DNA of 27,402 nt from positions 1-27,402 of the IMG/VR virus record IMGVR_UViG_3300006920_000186. One strand, given 5' to 3'. Shown here piece by piece: positions 2,702 to 7,846 of this stretch. Source of the DNA: a virus. Position numbers and translations under genes: made by a program. The notes beneath the pieces are model-generated. The model ran no database searches. It worked only from the letters and a program-made list of their open reading frames with translations, and was not told where the DNA came from. Position 1 is the first letter of the stretch, and each line of letters opens with the position of its first letter.

Positions 2702-3109
2702 ATGAAATATAAAATTACGAGTGTAATTGCGCTAATAGCACTAACCACAGCGTGTACACCACGATATGTACTACCAATCTGCGACCGTGAGGCACAAGAG
2801 TGGAACAAGTTCGATACTGTGGAAGATGTGTGTGATACTGTAGAAGTAGAGGTAATAGGGTGGGAACCGACAGGCTCTGAGCCTAATCCCAAGCCACCAA
2901 CTAGTAAACCACCTTCAGAGCCACCGAAGGAGCCACCGCACGAGCCACCTCATAAACCTGAAAAGGAAAAGGGTAACAATGGTTGGGGTAATGGGGACCA
3001 GAATGCACCCGGAAAATCTGGAGGACATAACAATGCGGAGAATGGTCCAAAGGGAGATCATGATGGTCGTGGAAAAGAATCATCTAATTCTGGAAAACGA
3101 AAGAACTGA
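2702..3109 (+). CDS. Proline-rich lipoprotein with Gly/Asn-rich tail
   Basis: Encodes 135 residues from ATG 2702, preferred over ATG 2690 because GGAG (2692-2695) is correctly spaced for the second. Residues 1-18 form a signal peptide (MKYKIT, then VIALIALTTAC) with a probable lipidated cysteine in a slightly atypical lipobox. A Pro-Lys-rich segment (repeats of EPP) spans about residues 60-90. A tail with WGNGDQNAPGKSGGHNNAEN resembles a motif seen in other phage and bacterial secreted proteins. It is probably anchored in a membrane facing the periplasm. Short proline-rich lipoproteins include Rz1-type outer spanins, but no partner inner spanin lies beside it, so that role is only a possibility. 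Confidence 0.7.
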   Translation: MKYKITSVIALIALTTACTPRYVLPICDREAQEWNKFDTVEDVCDTVEVEVIGWEPTGSEPNPKPPTSKPPSEPPKEPPHEPPHKPEKEKGNNGWGNGDQNAPGKSGGHNNAENGPKGDHDGRGKESSNSGKRKN

Positions 3110-3144
3110 TGTATGTCAGTAAAACGTATAAAAAGGATATGACA

Positions 3145-4164
3145 ATGAATGAAGATCGTGATAAAGCTTTTAAACAGTATCAATGTGATAACAGTGATAT
3201 ACAACAATACCTGATTAGTATGGAATCGAGAGCATTCAATGCTGGATGGGAAGCTGATAAACAGAATTCACTTAGACATACAGAAACTGTACATGACTTC
3301 GATGATAAAAACGGACCAGTACCTGCACATAAACATTGTAATGGCGGTGGTTGGGTAGCAGATACCGCAAGTGTATCAAGCTCAGTATATGTTGGATCAG
3401 AAGCTAAAGTATATGGTGATGCTAAAGTGTCAGGTAAGGCTAAACTATATGATTACGCTAAAGTATCAGGCAATGCTATAGTATGTGATAACGCTAAAGT
3501 ATCAAGTAGTGCTCAAGTATATGGTAGTGCTCAAGTATATGGTGATGCTATAGTATCAGGCAATGCTATAGTATGTGATAATACTAAAGTATATGGTAGT
3601 GCTCAAGTATATCGTGATGCTGAAGTATATGGTGATGCTCAAGTATCAGGCAATGCCATAGTATGTGATAACGCTCAAGTATCAGGCAATGCTATAGTAT
3701 ATGGTACTGCTAAAATACATAATCGTAGTAAAGTATATAGTTATGCTCGAGTATATGGTAATGCTATAATATATGATTATGCTGAAGTAAGTGGTGATGC
3801 TGAAGTATCAGGTGATGCTCAAGTATATAGTTATGCTAAAGTATGGAGTAAGGCTCAAATATATGATAGAGCTAAAGTATATGATCATGCTATAGTATAT
3901 GATAATGCTATAATATATGATGATGCTCAAATATATGATAGAGCTAAAGTATATAATAATGCTAAAGTATATAATAATGCTAAAATATGTAGCGATGCTC
4001 AAGTATATGGTAATGCTCAAGTATCAGATAATACTCAAGTATATGGTAATGCTCAAGTATATGGTGATGCTATAGTATATGGTTATGCAAAATTATATGG
4101 TTATGCTGAAGTATATGGTGATGATATAGTATGTAATAGCGGTGAGATAAGGACAATACTCTAG
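3145..4164 (+). CDS. Hexapeptide-repeat left-handed beta-helix protein
   Basis: Encodes 339 residues from ATG 3145, chosen because AAGGA (3133-3137) lies seven bases upstream; ATG 3109, overlapping the previous stop, would add 12 residues. Residues 1-60 are helical and polar and include AFNAGWEA. A cap with HCNGGGWVADTASV follows, then about 40 hexapeptide repeats of the form V-Y-G-[ND]-A-x to the C-terminus. This is the signature of a left-handed parallel beta-helix, as in hexapeptide acyltransferases and YdcK-like proteins. No catalytic histidine or CoA-binding feature stands out, so a structural or polymerising role is more likely than acyltransfer. The repeats are nearly identical at DNA level. 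Confidence 0.85.
   Translation: MNEDRDKAFKQYQCDNSDIQQYLISMESRAFNAGWEADKQNSLRHTETVHDFDDKNGPVPAHKHCNGGGWVADTASVSSSVYVGSEAKVYGDAKVSGKAKLYDYAKVSGNAIVCDNAKVSSSAQVYGSAQVYGDAIVSGNAIVCDNTKVYGSAQVYRDAEVYGDAQVSGNAIVCDNAQVSGNAIVYGTAKIHNRSKVYSYARVYGNAIIYDYAEVSGDAEVSGDAQVYSYAKVWSKAQIYDRAKVYDHAIVYDNAIIYDDAQIYDRAKVYNNAKVYNNAKICSDAQVYGNAQVSDNTQVYGNAQVYGDAIVYGYAKLYGYAEVYGDDIVCNSGEIRTIL
3385..4130 (+). repeat. Long array of 18-bp coding repeats
   Basis: Most of the beta-helix gene is a tandem array of 18-base units of the type GCTCAAGTATATGGTAAT, varying at a few positions. Codon choice is unusually uniform: alanine mostly GCT, valine mostly GTA, tyrosine mostly TAT. The array could change length by slippage or recombination in 18-base steps without breaking the frame. 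The reverse strand of the array is also open by chance (3808-4020). Confidence 0.85.
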
Positions 4165-5042: not shown

Positions 5043-5375
5043 ATGACTGTGAAACTATATTCACGAAAGCGAAATGAGACACTCGAATATGTTATTAGGC
5101 TGATCCCATCAAATAAGAGAATTGATAGGATTAGAGCCGTTCGTAAACTTGCAGAATGTACTCTAAGAGAAGCTAGAGACTGGTGTAATGAGCTTCAGGA
5201 AAAAGATGATCTAAAAGATTATGAGGTTCCTTATAACAAGAATACAGATTTCGATGATACTTATTATGATAACGAGGATACTGATAACGAGGAACCCTAT
5301 TATGGACGCACTAGGTGGCTGGACTCGGTATGCGATCATTCGAAAGTGTTATCACGAGCCTTGAATGGTGGCTGA
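5043..5375 (+). CDS. L7/L12 C-terminal-domain-like protein, copy 2 with acidic tail
   Basis: Encodes 110 residues. Residues 1-53 are closely similar to the 66-residue paralogue at 1379 (YVIRLIPSNK, then DRI-x-AVRKL and EA-x-DWC-x-EL), and both follow the helix pattern of the ribosomal L7/L12 C-terminal domain. In place of the usual second half of that domain it has a strongly acidic, tyrosine-rich tail (about residues 55-90), then a short helical end. The RBS/start context is shared with copy 1. In ribosomes the equivalent helices bind EF-Tu, EF-G and IF2, so competition with or recruitment of translation factors is a reasonable inference; there is no direct evidence. Confidence 0.75.
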   Translation: MTVKLYSRKRNETLEYVIRLIPSNKRIDRIRAVRKLAECTLREARDWCNELQEKDDLKDYEVPYNKNTDFDDTYYDNEDTDNEEPYYGRTRWLDSVCDHSKVLSRALNGG

Positions 5376-5386
5376 TAAATAGAGAT

Positions 5387-5478
5387 AGCCGAGTATGGTG
5401 ATGCTGTGGTGGACATCATCGTGAGGATAAGTAGTGGTAACACTATAAAATGAAGGTTCGACTCCTTCCTCGGTTGCC
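5387..5478 (+). ncRNA. tRNA-like RNA without an anticodon arm
   Basis: A seven-base acceptor-like stem, AGCCGAG (5387-5393) with CTCGGTT (5469-5475), encloses three hairpins. The last is a perfect T-arm, GAAGG-TTCGACT-CCTTC (5452-5468), with the canonical T-loop pattern. The second is TAGTG-GTAA-CACTA (5432-5445), placed like a long variable arm. The first is a ten-pair hairpin (5394-5403 with 5414-5423, three G-U pairs) with a ten-base loop. No 5-bp/7-base anticodon arm can be drawn, and the 3' end reads GCCG rather than CCA. It may be a decayed class II tRNA or a purposeful tRNA mimic. It lies wholly between genes. Confidence 0.55.
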
Positions 5479-5506
5479 GATATATACCCAAAATAAGGAA
5501 AGTAGA

Positions 5507-5908
5507 ATGATAATCAAACAGAAATTTATCAACCGAGTAGACCTGCAGAACAACCCGACATTAGTATACTTGTTTGGAGATAACCTTGCAAGGGTAGGGT
5601 TGGGAGGTCAAGCTGCAGCAATGCGGGGAGAACCTAATGCAGTAGGTGTAGCTACTAAGAAAACACCCTCATCAAACCCATCGGCGTTCTTTTATGATGA
5701 TGAATACATGGCGAACGTTAAAGCTATCTACGATGATATTACACCAGCCATAGGACACATCCTAAAGGGTGGAGTGTTGGTTATTCCATCTGATGGACTT
5801 GGTACAGGACTGTCAGCCATGGAAAAACACTGCCCAAAGACTCTGAAAGCGCTGAATGGACTACTTGAATATCTTGAGGACCTAGATAAAAGGATCAACT
5901 TAGTATAA
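5507..5908 (+). CDS. Conserved phage protein with FGDN...GGQAxxMRGE motif
   Basis: Encodes 133 residues from ATG 5507, preceded by AAGGAAA (5495-5501). A longer frame from ATG 5450 would run through the tRNA-like element and lacks an RBS. The protein has a compact conserved core: YLFGDNLARVGLGGQAAAMR, then PNAVGVATKK, then GGVLVIPSDGLGTGLSAM. Glycine-rich loops and the terminal IPSDGLGTGL suggest a nucleotide- or ADP-ribose-type binding fold, reminiscent of macro domains, but that is inference. I recall this signature from uncharacterised phage proteins. It is flanked on both sides by structured RNAs. Confidence 0.8.
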   Translation: MIIKQKFINRVDLQNNPTLVYLFGDNLARVGLGGQAAAMRGEPNAVGVATKKTPSSNPSAFFYDDEYMANVKAIYDDITPAIGHILKGGVLVIPSDGLGTGLSAMEKHCPKTLKALNGLLEYLEDLDKRINLV

Positions 5909-5942
5909 TCAGAATGGCAGTACTAAGATTCATGACATTATT

Positions 5943-6088
5943 TGTGGGGTGAGTACCGCCAGTAGTAGGTGAGCACCTCAGCAGTGAGGCACCGAATCTG
6001 TCGGGTAACTGCTACTCACTCCACATGTAATGTTATACTCAGATTGAAAATGGTGACTTTCTAGATAAGTCAACCTGTTAACATTACA
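5943..6088 (+). ncRNA. Two-domain structured RNA in a gene-free stretch
   Basis: The stretch 5909-6397 has no convincing gene. Its first half folds into two abutting domains. Domain 1 is closed by a 13-bp stem, 5943-5955 with 6013-6025 (one G-U). It contains CAGT/ACTG (5960-5963 with 6008-6011), GGTG/CACC (5968-5971 with 5990-5993) and a CCTCA-GCAG-TGAGG hairpin. Domain 2 is closed by a perfect 10-bp stem, 6026-6035 with 6079-6088. It contains a GGTGACTT/AAGTCAACC helix with one bulge. There is no T-tract, so a terminator is unlikely. This looks like a stable non-coding RNA or a processed UTR; no known class was recognised. Confidence 0.6.
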
Positions 6089-6120
6089 ACAAAACAGTTA
6101 GGATCATCGATATGACACTA

Positions 6121-6432
6121 GAGACACTAGAAGAACTTGGGTAATAAAAATTAGAGACACGTCGAGTAACGTCGACTAGTCTGGAGCTGGCACCTTCGAT
6201 GAATAGAAATGAGATCGTAACTCATAAACAAATGCTCATGAAAGGGGAATAGGATACCTATCTGCATGTATACAGATAAAGATGAATAATGGAGGATACC
6301 GTAGACTTTAGATATTGGTAAGTACCGAGTCGAGAGCTTCCGTTGAAACTTATTCATCATCCTACAATAAACTTAAGCAGCACAATGGAGAGTTCGAATG
6401 AAGCAGCCAGAGACACTAGAAGAACTTGGGTA
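6121..6432 (+). repeat. 23-bp direct repeat flanking a structured insertion
   Basis: The 23 bases at 6121-6143 recur exactly at 6410-6432, where they encode ETLEELG near the start of the gene at 6398. The first copy belongs to a ten-codon frame (ATG 6112 to TAA) that looks like a duplicated, aborted start of that gene. The 266 bases between contain TATCTG/CAGATA (a hairpin near 6258-6278) and a perfect 9-bp pair GATGAATAA/TTATTCATC (about 6281-6289 and 6350-6358). They also contain a repeated AGGATACC and only tiny open frames. It may be a second structured RNA or an inserted segment. Confidence 0.6.
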
Positions 6433-7769: not shown

Positions 7770-7846
7770 GCTCTTTTAGCTCAGTTGGATAGAGCGACCG
7801 ACTTCTAATCGGTAGGTCCGGGGTTCGAATCCCTGAGAGAGCACCA
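7770..7846 (+). tRNA. tRNA-Arg (anticodon TCT)
   Basis: A complete 77-base cloverleaf. Acceptor GCTCTTT pairs with AGAGAGC (one G-U). The D-stem is GCTC/GAGC. The anticodon arm is ACCGA-CTTCTAA-TCGGT with anticodon TCT at 7804-7806. The T-arm is CGGGG-TTCGAAT-CCCTG. The 3' CCA is encoded. It reads AGA (and AGG by wobble), codons used heavily in the phage genes here, so it probably supplements a scarce host tRNA. Confidence 0.97.

Follow-up and report, generated by a model that had tools for sequence, protein, structure and literature searches.

According to a recent study, the bacterial tRNAs known so far all form cloverleaves (PMC11551756). tRNAs without a D-arm have been described and these keep their anticodon arm (PMC7609411, PMC11551756), which is also retained in tRNA-Sec, a tRNA with 8+5 or 9+4 acceptor/T pairs (PMC7609411). 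In Bacillus cereus, the pseudo-tRNA tRNA-Other carries a Trp anticodon, is poorly charged and is thought to act outside of translation (PMC3399842). The phage element described here is likewise a tRNA-like RNA, but unlike tRNA-Other and the known D-arm-less tRNAs it is devoid of an anticodon arm. With tRNA-Sec it shares a lengthened arm after the acceptor stem and a long variable arm, but it contains 7+5 pairs and lacks the anticodon arm that tRNA-Sec keeps; when the element was submitted to Rfam, neither tRNA-Sec nor tmRNA was returned. Its strongest similarities are to class II tRNAs (Ser/Leu) and to a phage tRNA-Gln, and comprise a 7-bp acceptor stem, U8/A9, a T-arm with a consensus loop, the long variable arm with TAGTGGTAACACTA, and G73. 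In contrast to these tRNAs, a single 10-bp hairpin is present instead of the D-arm and the anticodon arm, and the element terminates with CCG.

The element is located in a 27.4-kb virus record (27,402 nucleotides; hereafter the window), which represents a phage fragment coding for RIIB and a GP88-like protein. The window also encodes a T7-like RNA polymerase with 37% identity to the polymerase of Roseobacter phage CRP-7 and, as judged by reading the translations, RIIA-like, ThyX, ribonucleotide reductase, DNA polymerase, exonuclease and primase-helicase proteins. The tRNA-like element occupies most of a 131-nt gap on the plus strand that separates two co-directional genes: an upstream gene encoding 110 amino acids of unknown function (5043-5375), and a downstream DUF7831 gene (5507-5908; PF25176, E 4e-40), whose start is preceded by AAGGA. 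An open reading frame that begins at 5450 was rejected as a coding stretch, as no ribosome-binding site is visible by eye and the DUF7831 match starts at 5507. The first-pass annotation considered the upstream gene to be L7/L12-like, a location that would make a translation-related function attractive. Searches of the 5043-5375 product against Pfam, PHROG and PDB sequences gave no support for L7/L12, and the translation-related setting is also unsupported, with an upstream gene that lacks profile support and a downstream DUF7831 gene of unknown function. The sole relative seen for the upstream gene is its paralogue at 1379-1579, with which it forms a direct repeat (161 nt at 83% identity) that is accompanied by repeated upstream sequence. 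Additional features of the window are a gene at 3109-4164 with approximately 36 tandem 18-nt units (a YGDAKV-like hexapeptide repeat), a 24-nt exact repeat (6120-6143 and 6409-6432) whose first copy resembles the beginning of the 6398 gene in truncated form, and a long hairpin at 5932-6038. In the latter (z -5.0), the outer stem exceeds 20 pairs; the hairpin matches no Rfam family and resides in a gene-free 490-nt stretch 3' of the DUF7831 gene.

The element spans positions 5387-5479 and ends with G-CCG. The seven nucleotides of its 5' acceptor strand AGCCGAG (5387-5393) all pair with the 3' strand CTCGGTT (5469-5475), forming an A-U pair, a G.U pair and five Watson-Crick pairs. The ten-pair hairpin (5394-5423) starts at U8 A9 and occupies the place of the D and anticodon arms; its strands TATGGTGATG (5394-5403) and CATCATCGTG (5414-5423) pair with probabilities of 0.81-1.0 and enclose the 10-nt loop CTGTGGTGGA. 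A linker (AGGATAA, 5424-5430) that is unpaired in the minimum-energy fold leads to the variable arm GTAGTG-GTAA-CACTAT (5431-5446), in which six base pairs (5431-5436/5441-5446) are capped by GTAA, a GNRA loop. This long paired arm in front of the T-arm is characteristic of class II tRNAs, and the distance of 58 nt between acceptor and T-arm also corresponds to the class II length. The T-arm GAAGG-TTCGACT-CCTTC (5452-5468) has five of five pairs (5452-5456/5464-5468) and a consensus loop. The tRNA body stops at the discriminator G73 (G5476), and CCG (5477-5479) is found at the position of CCA. Thus, the acceptor stem, the T-arm with a canonical loop, the GNRA-capped third hairpin and the ten-pair hairpin proposed by the first-pass annotation are all present in the computed fold, although the end of the body had to be corrected to G5476 and the third hairpin is the class II variable arm.

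Nearly all pairs of the element have probabilities above 0.8, with 0.71 for the terminal A-U pair, and the fold is considerably more stable (-31.4 kcal/mol) than those of shuffled sequences (-21.95 kcal/mol, sd 2.81; z -3.4; 0 of 200 as good). A conjunction pattern consisting of a 7-bp acceptor stem, U8, R9, a 5-bp T-stem abutting the acceptor and a TTCRANY loop matches the window at two places, whereas 0.003 matches per window are expected by chance from dinucleotide shuffles. These two places are the element and an ordinary tRNA-Arg(TCT) with encoded CCA on the same strand (7770-7846), which provides a comparison tRNA of the same phage. The ten-pair helix by itself is less striking, as 1.3% of shuffles of the 38-nt stretch hold a helix of this length. 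ARAGORN called only the tRNA-Arg in the window, and the Rfam tRNA model (RF00005) scored the element with 24.2 bits against a cut-off of 29, which is the low-scoring outcome that the first-pass annotation had associated with tRNA decay. The Rfam alignment contains the acceptor stem, one arm and the T-arm and skips the D-arm and much of the center; the element has the 7-bp acceptor and the 5-bp consensus-loop T-arm of a canonical tRNA, but neither the anticodon arm nor a score that reaches the threshold. Enumeration and constrained folds revealed no competing anticodon arm with a 5-bp stem, a 7-nt loop and U33; forced alternative anticodon arms carried a penalty of at least about 5 kcal/mol, and U33 was missing from most of them. 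A normal cloverleaf emerged neither from ARAGORN nor from enumeration or constrained folds, and the lack of an anticodon arm, already noticed in the first pass, is borne out by the latter two.

Further information on the origin of the element comes from its kinship to ordinary tRNAs. Ordinary phage tRNAs (L260, L266) carry 14 nt of the variable arm (TAGTGGTAACACTA) at the equivalent position, and close counterparts exist in two loci (L254, L256) where ARAGORN calls tRNA-Ser(TGA). Among 621 tRNAs, the closest to the element is a phage tRNA-Gln(TTG) (L189:284-358), with equal acceptor strands and the same GCC end; its last base is A (GCCA), where the element has G. Because the class II variable arm is shared with phage tRNAs and the acceptor and GCC end are like those of tRNA-Gln, the element is regarded as a tRNA derivative; its ends are tRNA-like beyond reasonable doubt, and its middle is not. 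We estimate a probability of roughly 50% that it is a recently remodelled, non-decoding tRNA remnant, in which the 10-bp hairpin replaces the D and anticodon arms. The decayed class II tRNA considered by the first-pass annotation is the best fit to the class II arm, the tRNA-Gln-like acceptor and GCC, the sub-threshold score and the missing anticodon arm.

Such a remnant would have arisen when the D and anticodon arms of a tRNA were replaced by one continuous 10-bp hairpin, leaving a top half that can still fold. The middle would have been altered by one or a few rearrangements and not by slow decay, and this confinement of the change would explain why the ends are intact; slow neutral decay should also strike the acceptor and T-stem, so that either the middle was rearranged or the ends are under selection. 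The element is probably transcribed together with its run of co-directional genes, and it could still be excised by RNase P and RNase Z because both enzymes read mainly the acceptor/T-arm half, but the excised product of about 90 nt would not decode. In line with a remnant, the top half is fully paired with a consensus T loop and CCG stands in place of CCA. Broken or odd tRNA genes are also not rare in phage contigs: in a biased sample of 2.5 Mb of phage loci, 27 of 362 acceptor plus T-arm matches, including the element, received no ARAGORN call. On the other hand, the middle is clean and stable (z -3.4 for the entire element) and the top half is free of mismatches, which would also agree with selection for a new function. 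Relatives yielded no intact ancestor, and the class II arm points to another parent than does the acceptor resembling tRNA-Gln. As a source of the middle, insertion into a tRNA of an 18-nt repeat unit from the gene at 3109-4164 was rejected, since the 12 identical nucleotides (TATGGTGATGCT) are not significant and were equalled in 11 of 500 shuffles and in 38 of 903 other genome windows.

The position of the element within a gap that it largely fills, between co-directional genes, together with an intact part that is just the top half required by RNase P and RNase Z, would also agree with a cis-acting processing site, at which a polycistronic message is cut between the 5043 and 5507 genes and the middle is free to vary. 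We consider this improbable, as the window contains no further intergenic tRNA-like site except for the ordinary tRNA-Arg.

No homologue of the element turned up in 50,697 phage records, in three IMG/VR scans with exact patterns that targeted arm combinations, or in a pattern scan across 84,980 genomes, although diverged copies would escape exact patterns. When IMG/VR was scanned more broadly for acceptor and T-arm, the matches listed were mostly ordinary tRNAs. A contig with 99% identity begins at window position 5914, just past the element, and the next relative, whose polymerase is 78% identical, terminates close to RIIA and lacks a counterpart of the early region. Likewise, contigs retrieved in searches with RIIA, ThyX, DUF7831 and RNA polymerase end before the element region or have no counterpart of it. 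No relative with a conserved structure was seen in the phage records and pattern scans, which lends no support to a functional tRNA mimic, i.e. an RNA that would be cut out, acquire CCA and bind a tRNA-binding protein without decoding. The proposed partners of a mimic are EF-Tu, a synthetase such as SerRS, RNase P or a tRNA-cutting defense nuclease. SerRS depends on G73 and a long variable arm and can dispense with the anticodon, and would therefore be the most plausible of these partners. The element has G73, a class II variable arm, acceptor and T-arms without mismatch, and a predicted fold that is more stable than all 200 shuffles. Although the intact acceptor/T-arm half is compatible with mimicry, the acceptor pairs A1-U72 and G2.U71 differ from typical tRNA-Ser and the element ends with CCG, and we regard a mimic as unlikely.

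The search for relatives of the element also uncovered a separate phage tRNA family without an ordinary D-arm, to which several of the 27 uncalled matches belong. Members were found at L282:595-688, L283:594-672, L284:596-676, L285:1495-1574 and L286:595-674, on the minus strand at L191:2248-2341, L264:1410-1501 and L162:2530-2609, and in L289, L290, L291 and L296-L303. Their acceptor stem is followed by UA, a CCCC- or UUGG-type stretch and a 4-5-bp hairpin with a 7-nt loop, and then by AAAGG or its counterpart, UAACUGG, sometimes a variable arm, the T-arm and usually NCCA. The anticodon hairpin is nested in a CC/GG-type pair that precedes UAACUGG. When 20 members were fitted to a covariance model, 93% of the cells were paired, 17 of 19 pairs had changed on both sides and the covariation score was 0.91, compared with 0.22 in shuffles; this result was matched by a MAFFT alignment of eight sequences. 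The loops CUACGAA, CUUCUAA, CUUCGAA, CUCCUAA, CUUAUAC and CUGAUAA can be read as containing the anticodons ACG, UCU, UCG, CCU, UAU and GAU, all of which would correspond to Arg or Ile. BLAST places the family in phages of Xanthomonas, Microbacterium, Rhizobium, Mesorhizobium, Streptomyces, Alishewanella and Pseudomonas. The genes are mostly unannotated, with a tRNA-Leu in Streptomyces phage EGole and a tRNA-Ser in an Alishewanella phage as annotated cases, and ARAGORN called no gene of this family in the loci tested. The tRNA-rich phage contig L162, which bears one member, also contains a GOLLD RNA (5760-6176, minus strand; 277.9 bits). Further odd phage tRNA-like genes are present at L255:7616-7674(-), L197:7042-7137, L177:5010-5090(-), L259:3559-3672 and L212:1846-1906(-), and include a 59-nt form that lacks an anticodon arm, forms whose anticodon or variable region carries an insert, and an apparent acceptor/T-arm minihelix with CCA.

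The architecture of this family, represented by model R1, invites a comparison with the element, as the latter could be a working non-cloverleaf tRNA whose 10-bp hairpin would serve as an extended anticodon arm and present the anticodon in the loop CU GUG GU GGA. The order of parts is the same (acceptor, UA, a single arm ahead of the variable region, a GGUAAC-type stretch, T-arm), the loop starts with CU as in 20 of 20 members, and R1 scores the element higher (31.3 bits) than the tRNA-Arg of the window (25.6 bits) and higher than the Rfam tRNA model does (24.2 bits). However, 31.3 bits does not exceed what ordinary tRNAs can reach under R1 (up to 37.7) and falls short of the members (47-95), and the element was accordingly rejected as a family member on this score. 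Family members have a 7-nt anticodon loop starting with CU, are closed by CC/GG pairs and mostly contain AAAGGUAACUGG, whereas in the element the loop CTGTGGTGGA has 10 nt, and the CC/AAAGG and UAACUGG motifs are absent. The element is therefore not a proven member of the D-arm-less family, and its function as a working tRNA appears quite unlikely. Even when working tRNA and mimic are taken together, a functional non-cloverleaf RNA with an architecture that is a sibling of the D-arm-less Arg/Ile phage tRNAs is a rather doubtful proposition, and the remodelled tRNA remnant is the reading that we prefer.

The D-arm-less family is probably more interesting than the element itself. Genes of this type are left unannotated by standard tRNA finders, and it was the element that led to a conserved family uncalled by ARAGORN. 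A phage RNA that has the top half of a tRNA and no decoding arm would constitute a natural probe of the features that RNase P, the CCA enzyme, EF-Tu and synthetases need in their substrates.
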